Positions 40,610 through 51,371 of a DNA stretch of 57,228 nucleotides are shown piece by piece. Under the pieces are notes generated by a model. The model was not told the DNA's origin and ran no database searches. It was given only the letters and a program-made list of their open reading frames with translations. This DNA is from Chloroflexota bacterium (lineage in GTDB: Bacteria; Chloroflexota; Anaerolineae; Promineifilales; Promineifilaceae): positions 1 to 57,228 of the forward strand of contig JAACFF010000002.1 of NCBI GenBank assembly GCA_009937635.1, in the 5' to 3' direction. Position numbers and translations under genes: made by a program. Each line of letters begins with the position of its first letter. The stretch's first letter is position 1.

Positions 40610-41140
40610 TTAATATTGTAAAAACAGGAGAATCGCTTGTGAGTCCTGGACAGTGGACCAGATTGTAGCAGGTAAAATGGCGCCTGCGAATGGCGACCGG
40701 TATTGCCAGCCCAATACGTCAATCAGGACGTAGTCCGCTATTGCCCACAAGCCAAAACAGCCGGCAGCAATCAGCACGATGGCAATAGCGATGCTGATGA
40801 TCAGGCACGCTTGCGCGCAGCCCATGCTACTACTTGGCATCGTACGCACCTTAGACCGCGGGGGCGATTCCGCAGCTCGATGCGCTACTACCCGCGCTCT
40901 CGCTCGAGAGCGCGGTCGTGTCCGTCGAGGCAGAACTTCACCAAAACCGTTGCAACCATAAGCCGTACACTTGCTTCCATTGGCCCGCCAGCAATGGGCA
41001 TGGTGTCGGCTGCCGTCATCCGGGCATATTACAATTTCGTCGCCAGAGGTAAAAGTTTCTTTGCAGAGGGCACAATCCTCCCCACGAAATGGGGACTCTT
41101 TATCTACAAGAACAGGTCTGATGAATGAACGTGGCGGCAT
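40610..41140 (-). CDS. RING-like zinc-binding membrane protein (ubiquitin-like operon)
   Basis: Residues 23-63 form a RING or treble-clef zinc pattern: C23-x2-C26, C39, H46/H47/H49, C50, C58 and C63 (CALCKETFTSGDEIVICPDD, then CW, GSKC, YGC). A basic Arg/Ser stretch follows, then a hydrophobic region of about 30 residues (108-138) that anchors the protein in the membrane. It shares the CW-x3-G-x-KC-x3-GC block with the neighbouring gene, so the two are paralogues. Prokaryotic RING fingers are known beside E1/E2/Ubl genes, where a ligase (E3) role has been suggested; that role is inferred here. Confidence 0.75.
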   Translation of the reverse strand: MPPRSFIRPVLVDKESPFRGEDCALCKETFTSGDEIVICPDDGSRHHAHCWRANGSKCTAYGCNGFGEVLPRRTRPRSRARARVVAHRAAESPPRSKVRTMPSSSMGCAQACLIISIAIAIVLIAAGCFGLWAIADYVLIDVLGWQYRSPFAGAILPATIWSTVQDSQAILLFLQY

Positions 41141-41214
41141 TCTGTTTCTATCACTTCAGCTTCTTGCTTATGCACAGCACTCTTGCTGCAAATGGGGCAG
41201 GTCCCCACAACCGG

Positions 41215-41643
41215 TCACTCAATCTTGATCTGGTCAAGCAACCATTGCCAAAATCGCTGCAATAAGCTGGGACGGCGCAACTGCTCCACCTGGCGTCTCT
41301 GCTCGTCCTTTAGACGTCTAGTACGGCGACTGGGGCCGCGGCCGTTGGGCGATGCCTGCTGTAAATCCCGGTAGTCAACCTTCAAGGCCGGTCCAAGATC
41401 GTGCCCATGGACATAATACGTATCATGCTCACATCCCAGAACAGCGCACTTCCCACCGCTCTGCTCCCAACAGGTCTTGTGGTATAGCGTACCGCACTTA
41501 GCGCAGACAACCGGCCTCAACACATCGCCATCTACATTGTTCTCCACCGCACCGGCGCAGATTGGGCAATGCAAACTTAATCGATTGGCTTCGGTGATAT
41601 CATCTTCCGTTATACGGAGTGACGGTAATTCTTGCTCATCCAT
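41215..41643 (-). CDS. RING-like zinc-binding protein (ubiquitin-like operon)
   Basis: This 142-residue protein has two zinc-binding pairs in RING order: C26-x2-C29 (CPIC), C47-x2-C50 (CAKC), H55, C58 (YHKTCW), C66 and C71 (GGKCAVLGC). The tail is basic and ends in a possible amphipathic helix (LLQRFWQWLLDQI). The N-terminus carries LRITEDDI, a motif also found twice in the CAP protein of the same operon. I chose ATG 41643; a GTG ten codons upstream is possible. Likely role: an E3-like adaptor binding the E2 at 44186-44719. Confidence 0.75.
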   Translation of the reverse strand: MDEQELPSLRITEDDITEANRLSLHCPICAGAVENNVDGDVLRPVVCAKCGTLYHKTCWEQSGGKCAVLGCEHDTYYVHGHDLGPALKVDYRDLQQASPNGRGPSRRTRRLKDEQRRQVEQLRRPSLLQRFWQWLLDQIKIE

Positions 41644-41761
41644 CTTGGCTAAAGCGTAAAACGTAACACACAAAAGGTCAAGGAACTGCTGGCGTATCTT
41701 ATGTTTCTAATACTCCAGCGAATGCGTAATAAATTCCTTTTTCCTACTTGTATCCATCCAA

Positions 41762-42898
41762 TTACCAGGAACCAGCCGCCCAGGAAGGCCAGGCGAAATC
41801 AAAGCGACTTACACGCGACTTTGGACGGTCCCAACAGAAAAACCCACTTGTACGCGCTCTTGGATCCAATACCAACGCCACGTGCCAGATCTGCGTGAAA
41901 AAATTTTGGTGAATAAAAAGGTCCATCCCCGACAAAAAAATGCCAAACCCAGGATGGGTGTGGTACCAACCTACCATGACCGCCGTATCATCCGGATAAC
42001 GTTGCGCCAAAGTATCATTTAAATAACGCCAGCTCTCCGGCGTGTAGGTAACGCTGGCGCCTTGCATAACTGTATGTCGCGCCACGATCATGTCGATAAT
42101 ATGGACCAGGTAACGGCCGTCAGGCTGTTTTTCCGGACGTGGGCCAACCAACACACCGGCCACCTCGCGCTCCATACTGCTCAAAGCGTGCGCCTGGGTT
42201 GCACGCAGCGCCGGTTCATCGACAAGAATATCAACTGCCGCCCAAGTCGGATGGCCAAGAGGCAACTGCTTCCCTGCCACCCGCACGCGCGCCTTGCTGG
42301 GAATGATCTCCGGAATGCGTACCCTGGGTTTGGGAACAGCTTCCGCTTTCTCCGCAACCTGCTCTTCGATTTCCGGAAAAACCAGCTCCGTTTCAGCCAC
42401 AGCTACATCTGGGGATTCAAACTCCGGCGCGCCATGCATCATCCCATCCGCATCTATTTCATCCGCTTCAGGAGGGGTCAATTCATCTGGCAAAAATGCG
42501 GGATCTTCTTCCGTACTCACGAGCGGTGGCGCTTCTTTCACCCCGGCTTCGGCGCCAATTTCGTCCTGCTCCACTGCCGGAAAAAGGAGAGCTTGGTCGC
42601 CCCACGCCTCGACAATTGCGCTTGGATCCCCATCCAAAGCAACCTCAACCTCAACATGCTCATCTTCATCCAACGCCGGTAATGTGATCGCCTCGTAGGT
42701 ATCCCAAACATCTTTCTCCAGCTCAGCCGCATAAGCTTGCAGATCAGCCAGTGTACAGTCGCGCAGGAGTTTAGTCTGCCCATCTGTGGGTACAGCATCA
42801 GCCGGGGATAATTTAACGGTAACGCTAATTGATTCTTCGCAACCCGGCATTGTAATTGTAATCAAGGCTGCGTAGGTAAGATCGCTCGTTTCAGACAT
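41762..42898 (-). CDS. JAMM/MPN+ isopeptidase-like protein 1
   Basis: This is a 378-residue protein. Residues 1-100 are an unrecognised N-terminal domain, 100-200 a long acidic, proline-rich linker, and 210-378 a JAB1/MPN domain. The full JAMM zinc site is present: E245 in SMEREVAGVLVG, then H313-T-H315, S323 and D326 in GWYHTHPGFGIFLSGMD. These match active deubiquitinases of the RPN11/AMSH type and bacterial relatives, so it should cleave isopeptide or C-terminal bonds of the ubiquitin-like protein. It is a close paralogue of the next upstream gene. TTTGGAAATTAG precedes the ATG. Confidence 0.88.
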   Translation of the reverse strand: MSETSDLTYAALITITMPGCEESISVTVKLSPADAVPTDGQTKLLRDCTLADLQAYAAELEKDVWDTYEAITLPALDEDEHVEVEVALDGDPSAIVEAWGDQALLFPAVEQDEIGAEAGVKEAPPLVSTEEDPAFLPDELTPPEADEIDADGMMHGAPEFESPDVAVAETELVFPEIEEQVAEKAEAVPKPRVRIPEIIPSKARVRVAGKQLPLGHPTWAAVDILVDEPALRATQAHALSSMEREVAGVLVGPRPEKQPDGRYLVHIIDMIVARHTVMQGASVTYTPESWRYLNDTLAQRYPDDTAVMVGWYHTHPGFGIFLSGMDLFIHQNFFTQIWHVALVLDPRARTSGFFCWDRPKSRVSRFDFAWPSWAAGSW

Positions 42899-42972
42899 CT
42901 AATTTCCAAATAGAGAATGGTCAGCTTACCGATAAAGTTCCCCTGAGAGAGCTTGTTGGAAGCGACCCCCAA

Positions 42973-44211
42973 TTACGGGACAAGTCTAATAGCTATCGCA
43001 CAAGGTGGGGAACCGGAAAGGCGAATATTATTACTATCCACGGCCGTCAAGCGCATCTCGTAATCCCCCACAGGCGCCGACGCCGTGTCCCAGGCCGCCA
43101 ATTGGCCTAACTTTGTGCCCTTGCGACGGGTATCTACTAAAGTCCAGCGTGCGCTTTCTGCCGGACGTACATTGATCTGGTAACGCGCCGCATTGGCGAT
43201 CATGGCCGTCCCTGTCACCTCAATCGTACTCCCTACCAGCGTACGCCCGCCACTCAGCGGTGCAAGAATACGTAGTTGCGGATCAGGACACAACGCCGCA
43301 TTGCTGTCGGCCAGAGCGGTATCAGCCAGGACGATCACCATATTCTGTAAGCGGTCCACCTCACGCGTCAAGGGTAGAACCCAGGCCACAAGCAGAAAAA
43401 GGCTTAGCAGCAAACCAATCGCCGCCAGGGCAAATCCCATGTAAGGCTTCAAAGCCGGCAACGCCATTCTATTGCTTGGTGGCAGGTAAACCGTGTTCGA
43501 GGAAGGACCCTGCGCTTCGTGATAATCGTAAGCGTGATCCCAAATCTGCGAATGCACCACTTGCCACTCCAATAAGGAGTAAGGTTGCAAGTCGCGCATC
43601 TCATAGAAACCACTGTATGGCACCAGTTCCCCAGCGTTCCAACCAAAGAAACTTGTCTCTTTCCGTATCGGATCCAGGACCAAGCCTACGTGCCACGGTA
43701 GCGTAAAAGCGGCCGAATGCACAACTACATCGTCACTTGAATAGAATACCCCTAAGTCAGGGTGGGTGTGAAACCAACCGACGATAGCCAGATCGGGAAA
43801 ATACTCAGTTCGATCCTGGTGCAGCCGCGACCATGCATCGGCCGTAAAGGTGAAATGTACGGGACCTTGATCCTCCGTCACCGCCGGGAGCGCAGCATGC
43901 ACCTCCAGATACACACGGCCGTTATTTCGATAGGCATGGCCCAGCAAAGCTCCCCCAACCTCACACTCTAAATTGCTGTAGCTATGAGCTGCAACGTGTT
44001 TCAGTGCCACTTGGGAAAGAATGATGGTTACTTCACCCGCTTCTACCGCCTGCCCATGCAGCAAACAATCTTCGGCTAAAACCGGCGGAGTCTGCACAGG
44101 CAGGCGATCCCATGCTAATTGGGGTTGAGCATCGGCTTGATATCCTGCTGGTGCGTCGGGCTCTTGATCGGTCGATTGCCCGCTCTCAGAGTAAGTTGAT
44201 GCCGAAGTCAT
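42973..44211 (-). CDS. JAMM/MPN+ isopeptidase-like protein 2, membrane-anchored
   Basis: This 412-residue protein has a JAB1/MPN domain at about 55-225 with all zinc ligands (E84 in LECEVGGALLG; H148, H150, S158 and D161 in GWFHTHPDLGVFYSSDD). A single membrane helix lies at about 256-280, and a C-terminal beta-rich domain follows (about 300-412; LRILAPLSGGRTLVGSTIEVTGTA). The MPN domain would face the cytoplasm and the C-terminal domain the outside. ATG 44211 has GAGGAA four bases upstream and overlaps the E2 gene by 26 bases, so the two are coupled. Six codons upstream (44229) is an alternative start. Confidence 0.88.
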   Translation of the reverse strand: MTSASTYSESGQSTDQEPDAPAGYQADAQPQLAWDRLPVQTPPVLAEDCLLHGQAVEAGEVTIILSQVALKHVAAHSYSNLECEVGGALLGHAYRNNGRVYLEVHAALPAVTEDQGPVHFTFTADAWSRLHQDRTEYFPDLAIVGWFHTHPDLGVFYSSDDVVVHSAAFTLPWHVGLVLDPIRKETSFFGWNAGELVPYSGFYEMRDLQPYSLLEWQVVHSQIWDHAYDYHEAQGPSSNTVYLPPSNRMALPALKPYMGFALAAIGLLLSLFLLVAWVLPLTREVDRLQNMVIVLADTALADSNAALCPDPQLRILAPLSGGRTLVGSTIEVTGTAMIANAARYQINVRPAESARWTLVDTRRKGTKLGQLAAWDTASAPVGDYEMRLTAVDSNNIRLSGSPPCAIAIRLVP

Positions 44212-44719
44212 CAGATTCCTCTTCCCCAAGCACGATCAAGTCCGAAATGGATTGCCCTTTGAGACTGCGTTGGTCTATCGGGAACAAACTCTTGTTTCGC
44301 AAAGCCCAAGTCGCTGCCCGCGAATTCATTGGGTCCTTAGGATCAAAATTCTTGTACTGGACCATTTCTCCCAGCGTCAAAAGCAGCTCATCCAAAGTCT
44401 TAGCAGGCCACCACGCGCCAATGCACACAGCACCCGTCACGTGAATGTTGGGATGGAAAATCGGAGTTACCCATTTAAGCTGCGGCTGTTTCAACGGGTA
44501 CTCGGCATGCAAGTACACTCTTACCTCATGTGACTCGCGGTAAACGGGCCTGCCGGAAGGCGTCACCTTTTCCACGCCCTTGCAAGTGAAGCGGATCAAA
44601 TACTTCTCCGGCGGGTTGCCTTCCGTCGCCCGTACATGAATCAGATCACTACGATCTACCAGACTACGAATACTGATGTAATCGTTGCGCAATCGAGTCT
44701 CACGAATATCAAAGGACAT
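44186..44719 (-). CDS. E2 ubiquitin-conjugating enzyme-like (UBC fold)
   Basis: This 177-residue protein matches the eukaryotic E2 core closely. It has YPLKQPQLKWVTPIFHPNI, with the HPN triad at residues 89-91, followed at the canonical distance by the catalytic cysteine C99 in TGAVCIGAWWP. Next come TLDELLLTLGEM and DPKDPMN, matching the helix and DP-x-DP region after the E2 active site. It should accept the ubiquitin-like protein from the E1 as a thioester on C99. An extension of 30-40 residues ends in an acidic tail. The stop overlaps the JAMM 2 start; the Ubl gene lies 92 bases upstream. Confidence 0.9.
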   Translation of the reverse strand: MSFDIRETRLRNDYISIRSLVDRSDLIHVRATEGNPPEKYLIRFTCKGVEKVTPSGRPVYRESHEVRVYLHAEYPLKQPQLKWVTPIFHPNIHVTGAVCIGAWWPAKTLDELLLTLGEMVQYKNFDPKDPMNSRAATWALRNKSLFPIDQRSLKGQSISDLIVLGEEESDDFGINLL

Positions 44720-44811
44720 AATTATTTCTCCAGGAACAGAGTCAGGAAGGGTGATGGCGATTAATCAAGCACCTTCACCCTTCCCTGAGATACCTGGTAA
44801 CTGAGATAGTC

Positions 44812-45078
44812 TTAGCCGGCCGTTACTTCCGGGAACAGGCTTAAGATATCATCTTCCTTTACGCCGGCATCGCCCAACGATTCTTCGTCCCCAAGGCGCT
44901 TGCCTGAAGAGCGGTGATCGAGCCGGTAGGTGATAGGATTAGCGCCCTGACTCGTCGGTAAACCCATTTTGCTCACCAAGGCCGGGATCAGGCGACGCAT
45001 GGGTACGTCATCGGGTAATTCTACCGGGGTTTTCTTTGATCCTGTGGGATCATAGATGATTACTTTTGTGCTTGCCAT
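44812..45078 (-). CDS. Ubiquitin-like beta-grasp protein
   Basis: This 88-residue protein has the ubiquitin/YukD pattern: first strand TKVIIYD, turn, second strand TPVELP, a helix PMRRLIPALVSKMG, ITYRLDH, and a final strand with DDILSLFPEV. It ends in TAG, a single terminal glycine rather than Gly-Gly, with no residues after it, so no processing would be needed to expose the glycine. A very strong ribosome site (GGAGGT, 9 bases before the ATG) suggests that it is made in excess, as expected of a modifier. Its place between the E1 and E2 genes supports a conjugated modifier. YukD proteins of ESX systems are the alternative, but no ESX gene is present. Confidence 0.82.
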   Translation of the reverse strand: MASTKVIIYDPTGSKKTPVELPDDVPMRRLIPALVSKMGLPTSQGANPITYRLDHRSSGKRLGDEESLGDAGVKEDDILSLFPEVTAG

Positions 45079-45225
45079 TTGAAAAAACCTCCATGGTTTA
45101 TTGTCATAATATCTACATTAATCAGTACGCACATTGATAATTTTAGTTGCGTTTAACACACCGTTCAGCAACTTCTCAAATAAAATGCAGTGGCCGTTTC
45201 GTTCTCTTTCAACTGAGCATACGAT

Positions 45226-46401
45226 CTACGAAAACTTTAAGAATGTCTCCTTGTCACCTGTCAATTCATAGTATACGCGTTCTTCCCCATTACGCGCACG
45301 AACAATATCCAGGGGCGGGATATCAACCTCGGCCAGGGTACGTTCTAAAAACGCCTCGTCACCTGTAATGCGATGGGTTAGGACCATGTCTCGGCGGCTC
45401 CCGCACGTCGGGCAAGTTGCACTGCTCTCAAACAATCTTGCCATCTTTTTGAAAACCGGTTCCTCTTCTTCACACTGAGCGCATCTCATCGCTACAACCA
45501 GTTCGCCACTGAATTCTAGCATAGCTTCAGGTCCAAGTCGCCCCCGAGCAATAGCTAGCAATTCAGCCAGAGTCGTCTTGTCCGAGCGCACCTGCGGCAA
45601 CTCGATGATGGGCTCCAGCCTGGAGTGGCTCATACACATCTCTTTTACCGGATATTCGGTTGTATAAACATCATTAGTCAGACCATTGATCATCATCGCT
45701 TTGCCCGACTGAACTTCCATATCATGAATCAGTTTAAGCGCTTCCTGGGTCTGAAAAGCAGCTACAATAGAGGCGCTGGTAGGCGTGGTTGCCACTTTAC
45801 CCATGAGCAGATTTTCACGTGCCAGGAGTGGGCATGAATAACGCAATCCAATCATCTGATAATCATGGTCTGTCAACGTGCATTCATAGCATGCTCCCTC
45901 ACCCGGCCAAAATACGCGCACAATACCCATCAGTTCCTGAATCGCGCCATCCACCCAGGGACGGCTGACCGCCCAGCTAAAACGATTGATAGATAGTCGA
46001 GCTTCGCGATTATCAAGGCAGCCGACGATCGCATCGATATGGCGGAAAACGCCCATTCCCATCTCGAAGTTGATATCACCATGCCACGCTTTTACATTGA
46101 CATCTGGATTCAAATCCTTGACGCCCGCGGCAGCTGCATCCACTTTGCGCTGGCCGTTGTTCTTCTCTCTGAACAACACAGAGCGGCTCAGATTGCTGTC
46201 TTCAATCGTATCAAAATCGGCAATCAGCAGGTTGCCAATGCCCATCAGGGCCAGGTTCTTGATAACTTCATTCCCTAACGCACCCGCGCCTACCACCAGG
46301 ACGGTCGCATCTCGTACGATATCCTGCCGCCACCAACTTATGTAGCCAAAGGTATGGTAACGATCTTTGTCGGGATCGGTTATTACAATCGTTTCAGTCA
46401 T
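45226..46401 (-). CDS. E1-like activating enzyme (ThiF/MoeB fold with zinc ribbon)
   Basis: This 391-residue protein has an adenylation domain with the nucleotide loop VVGAGALGN (38-43), the ADFDTIEDSNLSRS block (D62, N70, R73), K86 and CLDN (D130). It also has CYEC (171-174), SCPLL (C190, candidate thioester Cys) and PTSASIVAAFQTQEALKLI. The extra C-terminus carries a zinc ribbon (C307, C310, C330, C333) absent from plain ThiF/MoeB. It should adenylate the C-terminal Gly of the ubiquitin-like protein and pass it to the E2. GGAAG precedes the ATG. No thiamine or molybdopterin gene is near, which argues against a cofactor role. Confidence 0.88.
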   Translation of the reverse strand: MTETIVITDPDKDRYHTFGYISWWRQDIVRDATVLVVGAGALGNEVIKNLALMGIGNLLIADFDTIEDSNLSRSVLFREKNNGQRKVDAAAAGVKDLNPDVNVKAWHGDINFEMGMGVFRHIDAIVGCLDNREARLSINRFSWAVSRPWVDGAIQELMGIVRVFWPGEGACYECTLTDHDYQMIGLRYSCPLLARENLLMGKVATTPTSASIVAAFQTQEALKLIHDMEVQSGKAMMINGLTNDVYTTEYPVKEMCMSHSRLEPIIELPQVRSDKTTLAELLAIARGRLGPEAMLEFSGELVVAMRCAQCEEEEPVFKKMARLFESSATCPTCGSRRDMVLTHRITGDEAFLERTLAEVDIPPLDIVRARNGEERVYYELTGDKETFLKFS

Positions 46402-46519
46402 AATCTTCCAGTCTAAGTAAATCCTATTCAGTGTCGTTCACATCTTCAGACGCAAGCGGCCTAGGTCGTCGGCATCTATGGATGCCTGGCTACACACGCA
46501 GATTTCCAATCTACTGAGC

Positions 46520-47170
46520 CTAGCCAAACTTTGCAATAAAATTCTGCGTTACTACCAATGAGCCACTGGTATTATATGCGGCCCCAATTCCAACGTGCGA
46601 CCAAATCGGATTAAGCAAATTGCCACGATGGTTTGATATTCGGCGCGGCTGGTTCATGAATGCCCTATGGATCTCATAAATACCCTGGTCGCTGTGACTG
46701 GCCGGACCATAGACAATGCCTATATTTTCACCACAGGCAACGTAGCGAATACCTTGACCATCGATACGCTGTGCCACCTTAACACCCTCAGGAGATGTAT
46801 GCTCCACATATTGCCGTTTGAGCATGTCCGCCGAATGACCCCGCGCCACGGCTGCCAGTCCATCGTGCCATCGCAGATTCGGCCCGCCTAGCCAACGCGG
46901 TAAATGAACCTGACGGGCACTGTTGACCAAACCAAACATGAGCGTTTCCAACTCCGTCAGGTTAGGTTCTCCAGCTGGCTGTGGTGGCACAGGAGCAAGA
47001 TCCGCTTCAGTCACCTTTAACACAGATGAAGAACTTGGTGGCCTTGCAGGCGCGTCTGACGGCATATCCTCTATGCTAATCTGAATGACCGCTGGGGTTG
47101 GGGGTACTTCTTGCACTTCCTGCAAGACACGCTCAATATCTTCTTCGGTCAACTTCAGCCGATCACTCAT
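46520..47170 (-). CDS. CAP/SCP-domain protein without signal peptide (ubiquitin-like operon)
   Basis: The C-terminal part (about 70-216) is a CAP (SCP/PR-1) domain: LVNSARQ, VARGHSADMLKR (H112), VACGENIG (E148) and ISNHRGNLLNPIWSHVGIG (H181). CAP proteins are nearly always secreted, yet no signal peptide or TM helix is present here. The N-terminus instead has LKLTEEDI and later LKVTEADL, variants of the LRITEDDI motif in the RING-like protein, separated by a proline-rich linker. The role is unknown. Cytoplasmic location and the shared motif suggest that it docks to the same partner as the RING protein. Confidence 0.75.
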   Translation of the reverse strand: MSDRLKLTEEDIERVLQEVQEVPPTPAVIQISIEDMPSDAPARPPSSSSVLKVTEADLAPVPPQPAGEPNLTELETLMFGLVNSARQVHLPRWLGGPNLRWHDGLAAVARGHSADMLKRQYVEHTSPEGVKVAQRIDGQGIRYVACGENIGIVYGPASHSDQGIYEIHRAFMNQPRRISNHRGNLLNPIWSHVGIGAAYNTSGSLVVTQNFIAKFG

Positions 47171-47231
47171 AACGACGCGGGTTGGAAGGGTACCGGACCA
47201 GAGGACCCTTATCTTCTATCCTTCGTTGGAT

Positions 47232-48440
47232 TCAAACCGGCTTTAAGCTCCGGTAAAAAGGCAAGGAAAACTCCGTCCTGTCTGCATTGAGGGTGATAGA
47301 CTTACGTTCGATCTCGCCGTCTAGGTCGCGAGGCCAGGTGACATCCACGTCGTAAGTCAAGCCTGAATGTTCGGGGACGGGCAATTCGCAAACAAAGGTC
47401 CCTTCACGCGTCGTGGTACCGGCAACATGGCTCTTGATACCCTTGCAAGTCACTCGAACTTGCAGCCCATACAGTCCGGGGCCATCCGGGTATTCCTGCA
47501 CCTTAATTCGCAGTTTCGTGATCTTCATCGATTCGCGGCTGCGGGCGAATTTTTTGCGCACCGAATCCGCGAATGTAGATGCAGGGGCAACGGTTGCATT
47601 GGGTGTGACCACCCTCGTGGGTGTGACTTGCTGCCCAGCCTGATCGGCTGTTATTTGGATTGGCGCGCGGTGCCCAGAGCTTTGCTCCTCCGGAGTCAAA
47701 TCATCAAATGTTATGGTAATTGGATCACCGCGCGTGACGCCCGTCCAATCAACGCTTTCTTCTTCATCGATTTGCAGCGTGTCCTGCGCCACCTCCGGAT
47801 AGTTGACCGGTATCGGTGGTCTGTAGTGTGGAGGCAAAGGAGCTTCTGGATCTGAAGCCGCCATATCATCGAGCGAAGGCACCCTGTCGCTGCTCGTACC
47901 CGCCGCATACGCCAATTGCTTTCCCATCTTATCCCTTTCCGTGGCGCTGCGCTGAACCTGGTGGCGAATAAACGTGGCCGCACGTTTGAGCACCTGCCCA
48001 GCCGGACTATAAGCGTTCGGTGGCGCTGCGGGATCAAGCTGGTACAAAGGGTACCCGCTCTTCCAGGCAAATGCAGCCGTTGCCAAAGATTGCCATTGCA
48101 CACCCTCAGGAGGCTCATGCAGGTCACTAACGGCCGATGTGGCAGCCAAGGCAGCTACCTCTTCGCTATCGACCAATTCGCTTTCTTGCAACAAATCATA
48201 CAAGGCGATGCGCACCGCAATATCCTTCTCCATAAGCCTTTCAAAACTGTGTCGCGTAGGATCGTCCAGGAGATCAGAAGCGCGTAACAACGCCCTTGCC
48301 CGCGACTCAGTAAAGCTCGGCACGGGTTCGTCACTGCGATTGAGATCAGTCACCAGCCAACCAAGCAACTGGTTGGCAAAGAAATAAACATGAATCTGAT
48401 CAGGTAAAGATTGAATGAGTTCTAAAGCTGCATTCCGCAT
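47232..48440 (-). CDS. Unknown protein with helical N-terminus and C-terminal beta-sandwich
   Basis: In this 402-residue protein residues 1-170 are mostly helical (ELIQSLPDQIHVYFFANQLLGWLV, RIALYDLLQESELVDSEEVAAL). Residues 175-305 form a disordered, proline- and acid-rich linker. The last 95 residues look like an Ig/Cna-B-like beta-sandwich (TKLRIKVQEYPDGPGLYGLQVRVTCKG ... GLTYDVDVTWPRDLDGEIERKSI). I do not recognise a family or a catalytic motif. A good ribosome site (AGAGGT) precedes the ATG. Its place between the GTPase and the E1 cluster makes it a candidate adaptor or substrate of the conjugation system. Confidence 0.65.
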   Translation of the reverse strand: MRNAALELIQSLPDQIHVYFFANQLLGWLVTDLNRSDEPVPSFTESRARALLRASDLLDDPTRHSFERLMEKDIAVRIALYDLLQESELVDSEEVAALAATSAVSDLHEPPEGVQWQSLATAAFAWKSGYPLYQLDPAAPPNAYSPAGQVLKRAATFIRHQVQRSATERDKMGKQLAYAAGTSSDRVPSLDDMAASDPEAPLPPHYRPPIPVNYPEVAQDTLQIDEEESVDWTGVTRGDPITITFDDLTPEEQSSGHRAPIQITADQAGQQVTPTRVVTPNATVAPASTFADSVRKKFARSRESMKITKLRIKVQEYPDGPGLYGLQVRVTCKGIKSHVAGTTTREGTFVCELPVPEHSGLTYDVDVTWPRDLDGEIERKSITLNADRTEFSLPFYRSLKPV

Positions 48441-48503
48441 ACCGTGTACCTCTCATAGAGTGGTTGCCATCTGAACGATGGCAGCCACTCCCACATGACG
48501 AGC

Positions 48504-51158
48504 CTAGATGGCCAAGCTGATCTCTAGCTTGTGCAGCCCTTCCCAGGTACGCATTAGCTCTTCCAGGTCAGAGACGGACTCCAGATCGATCTCCATTGCC
48601 TTGCGCAATTCTTCGTCGTGCAAGTTGCGATCATGCTGTTTGAGCATCGGCTTCACCAGATAATTGATGAAATCTCGCTCCGCCTTCGTTGCTTCCAGCC
48701 AGAATAGACGGCGCAAGCGTGGCAGCAATTCATCGTCGCTGAACAGATCTTGCACAATATTGCCGAATATGCGATTTACCTTAACGGCTACTTCATCCAA
48801 CCGATCAGCATAGCTCGCTTCCAGGTCAGCCGGAGCTGATGCGGCTGCCTGTTCGCTCAAGAAGCTGATATCGAAGTCTGGCTGAGCCGGCTCGTCGAGA
48901 ATACTAATGTTGATCTCCTCTTCCGGCTCAAGGGCCGTTTCTTCCGCCGCCTGTGAATTGTTTGCTGGCGCAGGCATCATCGCTGCGATTTCTTCGCGAA
49001 CCGCTTCGGGACCATGCAAGGCCACGTCAAGCAACCGCTCGTTGGACGGCAAAGCTAGCTCTCGTTCTCCCGCCTCAAGACGTGCGTGGACAGAACGATC
49101 CGGTTTCATCAACTCGTACATCGTTGCTTGTTGGCACACGTGGCGGAAATTGCGCCCAATCCGTCCAATCAAGCTCTGGAAACCACCTGCCAGATCGAAG
49201 GGCTCATCAGCAATCTCCCCGGGAATCGTATAGCTATATTGCTGGTCATAGCTTGCCCGTTCCAGTCGCGAGTATATCTCATGCGCCTCAAGCGTCCGTT
49301 CCAGTTCGGCCGTCATGACCTCCGCCACCTCTGGCATGAACTTGGAAACCGATTCCTGCATAATCAACTCAACCTGGAACAAAATGCGTTTGATAGGAAT
49401 TTCAATCCCGCTCGTCCCCCAGATAAGGTTGTCATAGGTGACATCTCGATCATCCCAATATTCGGTGCCATAGCTCTCCAGAAGCGTTTCAACTTCGCGC
49501 TGGATAGAATCTTGCACCAGGCCCTGAACGCCGTTGAGCGTGGGGCGTAAGATGTCACGAAAACGTTCGTCGCTATTTGTGCGTGCGCTGAGTTCCAGCA
49601 GAGAATTGTGGAAAGCGCGCGGTAGATCCTTTTGCTGCCGGATCAACACATTTTCATAGCGCCGTTCCTGCAACTGTTCCCAATTATTGGCAAAAGGTGG
49701 CTGGACGCCGCGAGCTGCTAGCTGCTTTTCATAGTAATAACGCAGGGCTTGCAATGCGTTGCGAATACGGGTCGAAGCTTCGCGCAGTTGGCTGCGCACC
49801 CGCTGAGTCTTGATAAAATCCACCAACCGCTCACGCAGCAGCGGCACTTCGCTTAAGTTTAATAACGCCTGCTTTGTCTCTGGCGCAAAGGGGTCGCCCA
49901 GATCCACTGGTCCCAACTGATCCTTGAAAACTTTCAGCACGCGTTCCGTCTCGCTGGCAAATTCCGCAGGTGCGTTTTCCGGATCCTGCAAGTAAAGAGC
50001 GGGCGGTGCCATGATCAGGAAGTATGGCCTGTTGTGCCCGCGATCTTGATAACGCTCCCAATAGTTAGGGGCCACGTAACGGGTGACTTCCTTCACCTCC
50101 AGTTCCGCTTCCGGCAATCCGGAATTCAGACGATCGAAGGCCTGGCGGACATTGCCGCCATTCACAGCCAGGAATATCTTGGCTGCGGCCTCGTCCAGAT
50201 CGCCCCCTTGCAGTCCAAAGAGACGATTTTCCTTGATCCAGTTTACGGCCGAAAGCGACTTCATCTCATCTACACGCTGCCGTCCCGCATCCGTCACCAG
50301 GACGATCATCGCATCCTCACGCTTCATCTCTTCCAACGTGATCTCTTCGTGCAGCCGCATCCCGGCTCCAAGTCCCGGTACGTCGACAATACGCAAGAAA
50401 CCATTCATCAACAGATTAGGCACGCCGGTGCGCGGTTGGATGCGGAAAGTCGCCGCTTTGATTAACCGGATCTGGCGCTGGTTGCTGCCTTTAAAACCAT
50501 CCTCGCGCAGATGCTTTAGAGAACTTTCATCCTCCAGGGGAAGATTGAGCGGAGGTGGCGTTCCCGCCTTAAATAACTCCTTATTGTTCTCATATGAATG
50601 GATGCAATCGAGCAAGATCTCCAGATACTCGTCACGTTCCGTTTTAGCGGATTCCTTACTATCCTCAATCACAGCCTTGATATCTTCTTCAGCTTGCTCA
50701 CGCTCACCGCTGTTGGTGATATCAAAACCTTCCAGCTCCGCCAGTTGGCAAAGTCTTCGCACACGCTCGGCGAATTCATCTTTGCTCCAATAATCCAGAA
50801 CAAGAGATTCTGTCTCGCCTTCATTCGCCTCTTCAATATAGACGATAGTTCCCGTAACGGCCGTAACCGCGCCCGTCGGCAACAGGTTTCGACCCAGGAG
50901 ACCATTAATTAGCGTGCTCTTACCGACACCTGTGCCGCCAAAGAACACGAGGGTATACGTACGCTGACCCAATATCTTCTGCGCTTCATCAATGCTGAAC
51001 TGCGCATCCGGTACGGCGCGTATGAGGTAATCACGAGTACTATCAATCGATTGCTGCAACTCAACCCAGGTTTCCACCTGAGCTGGGCTAACATGGGGCA
51101 AGGTTTCTAACGATGCTTGCAGCTCTTCGTACTTGTCAACTTTCTTAGGGCTCATCAT
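48504..51158 (-). CDS. Dynamin-like large GTPase (first gene of ubiquitin-like operon)
   Basis: In this 884-residue protein the P-loop GGTGVGKSTLIN (74-85), a G2-like VTGT (101-104) and G3 DVPGLG (259-264) mark a dynamin-superfamily GTPase. The usual G4 N/TKxD is not clear (FLAVNGGN occupies that region). A large insert separates G2 and G3 (about 110-250). Long helices resembling a dynamin stalk follow (about 440-700), then an acidic linker near 740-775 and a helical end. No membrane helix is seen, so any membrane contact would be peripheral. AAAGGAAG precedes ATG 51158. A link between such GTPases and Ubl conjugation is unusual and rests here on gene order and direction. Confidence 0.8.
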   Translation of the reverse strand: MMSPKKVDKYEELQASLETLPHVSPAQVETWVELQQSIDSTRDYLIRAVPDAQFSIDEAQKILGQRTYTLVFFGGTGVGKSTLINGLLGRNLLPTGAVTAVTGTIVYIEEANEGETESLVLDYWSKDEFAERVRRLCQLAELEGFDITNSGEREQAEEDIKAVIEDSKESAKTERDEYLEILLDCIHSYENNKELFKAGTPPPLNLPLEDESSLKHLREDGFKGSNQRQIRLIKAATFRIQPRTGVPNLLMNGFLRIVDVPGLGAGMRLHEEITLEEMKREDAMIVLVTDAGRQRVDEMKSLSAVNWIKENRLFGLQGGDLDEAAAKIFLAVNGGNVRQAFDRLNSGLPEAELEVKEVTRYVAPNYWERYQDRGHNRPYFLIMAPPALYLQDPENAPAEFASETERVLKVFKDQLGPVDLGDPFAPETKQALLNLSEVPLLRERLVDFIKTQRVRSQLREASTRIRNALQALRYYYEKQLAARGVQPPFANNWEQLQERRYENVLIRQQKDLPRAFHNSLLELSARTNSDERFRDILRPTLNGVQGLVQDSIQREVETLLESYGTEYWDDRDVTYDNLIWGTSGIEIPIKRILFQVELIMQESVSKFMPEVAEVMTAELERTLEAHEIYSRLERASYDQQYSYTIPGEIADEPFDLAGGFQSLIGRIGRNFRHVCQQATMYELMKPDRSVHARLEAGERELALPSNERLLDVALHGPEAVREEIAAMMPAPANNSQAAEETALEPEEEINISILDEPAQPDFDISFLSEQAAASAPADLEASYADRLDEVAVKVNRIFGNIVQDLFSDDELLPRLRRLFWLEATKAERDFINYLVKPMLKQHDRNLHDEELRKAMEIDLESVSDLEELMRTWEGLHKLEISLAI

Positions 51159-51216
51159 GAACTTCCTTTAGTTTTATTAATTAAGTATTGCTTCTTATTG
51201 ATTTTACAGATCGTTT

Positions 51217-51246
51217 TCCATAGGCATATGATAGCAAATGTGTCAA
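51217..51246 (-). promoter_or_regulatory. Candidate promoter of the ubiquitin-like operon
   Basis: On the minus strand a perfect -35 TTGACA (51241-51246) is followed after 18 bases by TATGGA (51217-51222). It lies about 60 bases before the GTPase start. The -10 is weak, so regulated or low expression is possible. The rest of 51159-51371 is A/T-rich and has no gene. Confidence 0.45.
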
Positions 51247-51371
51247 TCCTCCTACACATACATCACTACGCAGGCATTAGAAAAAGGTTGCAAAAAAATT
51301 CTACGCTTGATTTAACGTTGCAAATATGATACGCTTCCCCGTGACGCAGTGCGTCATAGACGGGTATAGGT

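Follow-up and report, generated by a model that had tools for sequence, protein, structure and literature searches.

A family-wide ubiquitin-like conjugation locus of Chloroflexota, predicted to be reversible, non-proteasomal and linked to the membrane

Prokaryotic systems with RING, E2, E1 and JAB proteins and YukD-like ubiquitin-like proteins (Ubls) were reportedly described by Burroughs, Iyer and Aravind in 2011, who are said to have predicted a link between the YukD-type Ubl, the E2 and the RING. The Bil, Bub and type II CBASS systems also combine an E1, an E2, a JAMM protein and a Ubl or target; CBASS has an E1-E2 fusion, and all three show the distribution of defence systems. To my knowledge, these three have no RING, the bacterial Ubl pathways tested so far all serve phage defence, and no YukD-type Ubl has been shown to be conjugated. 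Here I analyse a ten-gene locus in a 57,228-nt stretch of DNA (contig JAACFF010000002.1, positions 1 to 57,228; hereafter the window), which belongs to a 6.56-Mb metagenome-assembled genome (MAG) of the Promineifilaceae family of Chloroflexota. The seven named relatives are Chloroflexi/Anaerolineae MAGs. The locus encodes an E1, an E2, a Ubl, two JAMM proteins, two RING proteins, a dynamin-like GTPase, a transthyretin-like (TTR-like) protein and a CAP-domain protein. Is this another defence system? On balance, I lean towards a core, chromosomally inherited, reversible and non-proteasomal Ubl-conjugation pathway that would regulate a membrane module.

As in the systems ascribed to Burroughs and colleagues, the E1, E2, Prok-RING_1, JAB and YukD-like Ubl genes lie in one neighbourhood. 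Unlike those systems, the window has two JAMMs, two RINGs, a dynamin-like GTPase, a TTR-like protein, a CAP protein and a shared short motif, and its E2 and Ubl are unfused. The patchy, mobile, defence-island distribution of the Bil, Bub and CBASS kind was not found for the window pathway, and the PADLOC models (library dated 2023) gave weak partial matches only. In the FtsH-ternary conflict systems, Ubl-E2 fusions occur with JAB, E1 and RING; they share with the window the E1, the RING E3, the JAB and the Ubl/E2 domains, but have fusions of effector-associated domain (EAD) 1 with Ubl-E2, vWA-MoxR, FtsH and caspase-like effectors of their own (PMC7159879). Pfam detected no EAD-fused Ubl-E2, MoxR-vWA, FtsH or caspase-like effector in the ten window proteins. 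The operon of Caldiarchaeum subterraneum resembles the window in having E1, E2, a small RING and JAMM, whereas its Ubl matures to a di-glycine tail and no dynamin, TTR-like or CAP genes were reported (PMC5654768). Its cascade was shown biochemically (PMC5654768), while that of the window is predicted. On this evidence, the window pathway adds a new form to a known kind of Ubl system that experiments have hardly touched. A first-pass annotation of the window had proposed a distinct and nearly complete pathway; this interpretation holds up. The E1, E2, RING, JAMM and Ubl are all present, their active sites do not vary, and the GTPase and TTR-like genes are confined to the family.

The distribution was analysed in two samples, one of 56 genomes of the order (52 of them in the window's family) and one that covered the phylum evenly with 400 genomes (three family members and 397 other Chloroflexota). 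Within the family, 49/52 genomes have the E1, 47/52 the E2, 48/52 the GTPase and 46/52 the TTR-like gene, and at least one Prok-RING_1 (PF14446) match at E<=0.001 was found in 48/52. The order totals for E1 and for E2 each take in one genome of family f91. Several gene absences fall at contig ends, and the contigs of G411 and G419 stop inside the Ubl gene. In the phylum sample, 13/400 genomes have an E2; the GTPase and TTR-like genes occur only in the three family members and in none of the 397 other Chloroflexota. Phages and viral contigs gave no E2 match, and plasmids gave a single one (34% identity, Crinalium pCRI9333.03). It was revealed that none of the 56 order genomes encodes a PF00227 protein (proteasome/HslV), while the controls were positive. 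Thus, proteasomal degradation is unlikely. The distribution is that of a trait maintained by vertical inheritance rather than that of a defence island. Three features speak for a core cellular role rather than defence, as had been argued from the window itself: the near-universality, the housekeeping flanks and the lack of matches in phages, viral contigs and plasmids, with one plasmid as the exception.

The ten open reading frames (ORFs) all lie on the minus strand, from 51158 down to 40610, and are 61-147 nt apart; only E2 and JAMM1 overlap, as they also do at homologous loci. The order of transcription is GTPase, TTR-like, CAP, E1, Ubl, E2, JAMM1, JAMM2, RING1 and RING2. The first-pass annotation had described ten genes on one strand with short gaps or overlaps, with which the ORFs and Pfam agree. 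It had placed them at 40610-51246; the lower end of this span holds, while the GTPase starts at 51158, 88 nt short of the upper end. Nine of the ten products are named by Pfam, and the 402-aa product has no Pfam family. E1 (ThiF), E2 (UQ_con), JAB and a YukD-like Ubl are encoded together, as in Prok-RING_1-associated Ubl systems.

Residue conservation was scored over 20-30 sequences per protein from about 20 genera. The E1 (45226..46401) consists of a ThiF adenylation domain (Pfam ThiF, 6e-51) and a C-terminal tail with a zinc ribbon. C190, at the ThiF/MoeB-type catalytic-cysteine position, and the nucleotide-site residues show no variation, and the top profile matches in the PDB are UBA7, UBA1 and the SUMO E1. 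The zinc ribbon, which had been presented as an addition to this E1, is below the Pfam threshold in the window protein and degenerate in some genera (L052, L053, L060, L069); it is therefore not essential. The E2 (44186..44719; Pfam UQ_con, 2e-14) is canonical, as first described, with an HPN motif and a cysteine; H89 and C99 are invariant, and its closest relatives in the PDB are eukaryotic E2s, yeast Ubc1 (1fxt) among them. The Ubl (44812..45078; 88 aa; Pfam YukD, 1e-10) is more strongly conserved than any other product of the operon (mean identity 0.84). Its expected C-terminal glycine is a single residue, the invariant G88 of EVTAG, and not GG; the di-glycine tail is absent, and TAG was found in all complete family Ubls examined. 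Four Ubls (L057, L065, L066 and L067) have 1-5 residues beyond TAG (QGRRA, A, RS and LF) and would need trimming, which implies the processing of precursors. Likewise, the pro-ubiquitin of Caldiarchaeum is trimmed by Rpn11 (PMC5654768).

Both JAMM domains have every zinc ligand, as had been noticed in the window, and both sets are invariant: E90/H154/H156/S164/D167 in JAMM1 (42973..44229; Pfam JAB, 2e-8) and E245/H313/H315/S323/D326 in JAMM2 (41762..42898; Pfam JAB, 4e-8). The JAMM1 ORF opens at 44229, and its conserved start is MTSAST at 44211. In JAMM2, an N-terminal domain of ~100 aa without assignment and a variable linker precede the C-terminal JAMM; the AlphaFold2 (AF2) model of this protein had a predicted local distance difference test score (pLDDT) of 38 and was not used. 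RING1 (41215..41673; Pfam Prok-RING_1, 1e-8), whose ORF opens at 41673 and whose conserved start is MDEQE at 41643, is soluble and of the C4HC3 type, with all eight zinc ligands invariant. RING2 (40610..41140; Pfam Prok-RING_1, 4e-10) has kept seven ligands; the fourth is Asp in most members and Cys in L060. The two proteins score 35.2 and 39.9 bits against the PF14446 cut-off of 29.1, so that two RING-like proteins, as first described, are present.

The dynamin-like GTPase (48504..51158; 884 aa; Pfam Dynamin_N, 1.1e-11) has SynDLP Slr0869 (7zw6, 3e-9) as its best profile match in the PDB, followed by the bacterial dynamin-like protein BDLP (2j68). In genome G421, an in-frame TAG interrupts the GTPase ORF (L101:7425-10196), which is an assembly error or a pseudogene. 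The TTR-like protein (47232..48440; 402 aa) was modelled with AF2 from shallow alignments of only the window and related-locus sequences; pLDDT was 53 overall and about 60-78 in a seven-stranded C-terminal domain, whose top Foldseek matches all have the transthyretin/5-hydroxyisourate hydrolase (HIUase) fold (E ~1e-4, target TM ~0.6). Its C-terminal domain thus models as a transthyretin-like beta-sandwich, so that the "beta-sandwich" label given to it earlier is backed by the model of this domain and not by a Pfam family. Residues ~184-290 are disordered in the model. They are preceded by a poorly modelled helical N-terminal region, for which AF2 confidence was too low to name a fold. The CAP protein (46520..47170; 216 aa; Pfam CAP, 3e-11) shows no N-terminal hydrophobic segment and is probably cytoplasmic. 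At one locus (L005:5068-5851), a 120-aa ORF without assignment and a C39-like cysteine peptidase are inserted between CAP and E1. By hydropathy, JAMM1 has one conserved hydrophobic segment near residue 262, a putative transmembrane segment followed by a C-terminal extracytoplasmic region, and RING2 has one at residues ~105-125, C-terminal to the RING. No hydrophobic membrane segment was seen in the GTPase. Of the membrane action suggested at first for one JAMM, one RING and perhaps the GTPase, the linkage of JAMM1 and RING2 is supported by these segments and that of the GTPase is not. I infer a membrane role for the pathway.

It was found that three unrelated proteins, RING1, the TTR-like protein and CAP, share the consensus [IL]-[TRK]-I-T-x-[DE]-D-[IL], including an acidic position outside the requirement of the search pattern. 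The motif lies at the N-terminus of RING1 (LRITEDDI, 41596..41619), in the disordered linker of the TTR-like protein (ITITFDDL, residues 241-248, 47697..47720) and, in two or three copies, in the N-terminal region of CAP (LKLTEEDI, IQISIEDM and LKVTEADL in the window, 46997..47158). RING1 has 28 sites in 24/24 sequences against 0.21 expected from shuffles, the TTR-like protein 24 sites in 22/29 against 0.77, and CAP 24 sites in 10/12 against 0.18; the sequences are related, and these counts are not independent events. As a background, 400 kb from the genome of a close relative in the family has 13 sites in 346 other ORFs, two of them in the strict form. The JAMM2 matches, which lie within the folded core of its JAMM domain (GIFLSGMDLF), were left out of the counts. 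As judged by these sequence matches, the motif ties RING1, CAP and the TTR-like protein together independently of synteny. It may bind the Ubl in the manner of a SUMO-interaction motif, or it may be a TxxD-type FHA site; with 7-18 FHA domains per genome, an FHA receptor is possible but unspecific.

Contiguity was counted by hand from locus maps of 22 genera. The backbone gene order is E1-Ubl-E2-JAMM1-JAMM2-RING1; Ubl-E2 and the downstream genes are apart from E1 in g242, g243 and one g227 genome. Co-occurrence of the companion families with the E1 was seen: the GTPase and TTR-like genes are directly upstream of E1 in 17/22 genera (some contig ends show the TTR-like gene only), and CAP is beside E1, or between the TTR-like gene and E1, in eight. 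The best conserved flanking genes, for an M32 carboxypeptidase and a CNNM/CBS transporter, occur at 6/18 loci, and that for a GNAT protein at 5/18, while the operon genes are at all or most loci. Thus, the adjacency exceeds the background.

How might such a pathway work? The E1 would adenylate the Ubl at its terminal Gly and load it onto C190, from which it would pass to C99 of the E2. The soluble RING1 and the membrane-anchored RING2 would direct the Ubl onto amino groups of its targets, a step that probably takes place at or close to the inner side of the cytoplasmic membrane, and the membrane-anchored JAMM1 together with JAMM2 would remove the tag and also trim the few Ubls with residues after TAG. 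The tag would not be a proteasome signal. Its likely output would be the regulation of a membrane module, for which the strongest candidate is the dynamin-like GTPase together with its TTR-like partner. Through [IL]xITx[DE]D[IL], RING1, the TTR-like protein and CAP may dock on a common partner. The most economical partner would be the Ubl, in which case the tandem copies in CAP would read several tags; the alternative would be an FHA domain, if the Thr of the motif is phosphorylated. The more detailed proposal of a housekeeping, non-degradative Ubl code, with conjugation at the membrane, a motif in the E3, CAP and TTR-like adaptor that reads the Ubl, and control of a membrane-remodelling GTPase, is tentative and somewhat unlikely to hold as a whole. 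A family-wide Ubl pathway beside a dynamin-like GTPase, in bacteria without a proteasome, points to ubiquitin-type tags that serve a housekeeping purpose at the cell membrane and do not mark proteins for destruction. Near-universal in the family and equipped with an intact E1-E2-RING-JAMM set and a dynamin companion, the pathway would make it testable whether ubiquitin-type signalling first arose in non-degradative membrane control, and it would supply a complete minimal set for reconstitution.

Several points weigh against a core pathway that regulates the membrane module. Conjugation of a YukD-type, TAG-tailed Ubl is a prediction from gene content. The GTPase-TTR pair is together but ~9-13 kb off or on another contig in g226, g231 and g235, split or missing in g245 and separate in one g227 genome, and three g245 MAGs (77-82% complete) have kept E1 and E2 while both genes of the pair are missing. 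CAP is dispensable, and so is RING2; a second RING is absent in at least g227, g232, g240, g241 and g245 (about six genera). The g245 genome G445 has kept the RING1 motif without the GTPase and TTR-like genes. Neither of these two can thus be the only receptor, and the partner is probably the Ubl, the E2, the E1, a JAMM or an outside protein. Instead of an indivisible operon, the locus is made up of two linked modules, in which RING2 and CAP are optional; the genes of the operon first proposed are co-inherited, with the pair detached in four genera. Are the modules merely neighbours, with a Ubl pathway of six to seven genes and a membrane module of GTPase and TTR-like protein (plus CAP) sharing a locus but not a function? 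The detachment of the pair as a unit in several genera, and its absence where E1 and E2 persist, would suit this explanation. Contiguity with E1 in 17/22 genera despite flank turnover, the motif that joins the TTR-like protein and CAP to RING1, and the confinement of the GTPase and TTR-like genes to the same bacterial family speak against it, and I regard it as unlikely.

An anti-phage or conflict system, in which conjugation of the Ubl would inactivate parts of an invader or set off a dynamin effector acting at the membrane, would be in line with the phage-defence role known for bacterial E1/E2/Ubl/JAMM systems that have been put to the test (Bil, Bub and type II CBASS). It would also be in line with the weak match of the PADLOC dynamin-like LeoA/LeoBC models and with the RING and Ubl-E2 fusions in EAD/FtsH/MoxR conflict systems (PMC7159879). 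However, defence systems are patchy, and these genes occur in nearly all genomes of one family. No window protein is matched well over its whole length by a PADLOC model, phages and viral contigs gave no match to the system, and the operon is without an effector nuclease, protease, EAD or mobile gene. A conflict role is thus quite unlikely. It is very improbable that the Ubl serves as a sulfur carrier or as a YukD accessory of a secretion system, with other roles for the E2 and RING homologues. The E1 does belong to the ThiF/MoeB superfamily, and YukD Ubls are best known from ESX/T7SS (type VII secretion) loci (PMC1779556), but the HPN and Cys of the E2, the two RINGs and the two JAMMs are intact and conserved, the operon has no ESX or cofactor-synthesis genes, and the best PDB matches of the E1 are eukaryotic Ub/SUMO E1s.

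The region 51159-51371 (~210 nt), between the GTPase gene and a divergent GNAT gene, is the likely promoter region of the operon. Promoter and terminator scans gave no excess over shuffled sequences and no site above chance in 51159-51371, and an Rfam search of the window gave no match.

A sister system was found at ten loci (L072-L080, L082) in other families and orders of Chloroflexota. Like the window, it has related E1, E2 and Ubl proteins (55%, 42% and 38% identity in one representative pair), the TAG tail, Prok-RING_1 and JAMM. Unlike the window, it has one JAMM and no GTPase, TTR-like or CAP gene, and the motif was not found in its proteins. Its E1 is longer, its RING has N-terminal transmembrane segments, a Ubl-E2 fusion with the junction ITAGG accompanies a free Ubl ending in TAG, and an FHA membrane protein and a vWA protein are encoded downstream of the JAMM in the loci inspected. 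In the one E1 scanned (L073:6997-8661), a GntR helix-turn-helix DNA-binding domain is fused to the N-terminus, and this E1 may also regulate transcription.

Other E1 and E2 genes were found outside the operon. The Crinalium plasmid pCRI9333.03 has a cluster without a RING (L130:7254-10731), in which E1, two small Ubl-like ORFs (one ending in EGGY), E2 and JAMM adjoin a conjugative DNA transfer gene. A divergent E1-E2 pair with a small ORF in between lies at L081:145-2693 (G220) in another Chloroflexota family. Within the window's family, genome G427 has a second E2 that is fused to the effector-associated domain EAD7 (L083:8665-10323, G427:C2); in this genome, a Ubl system of the conflict type seems to exist alongside the core operon.

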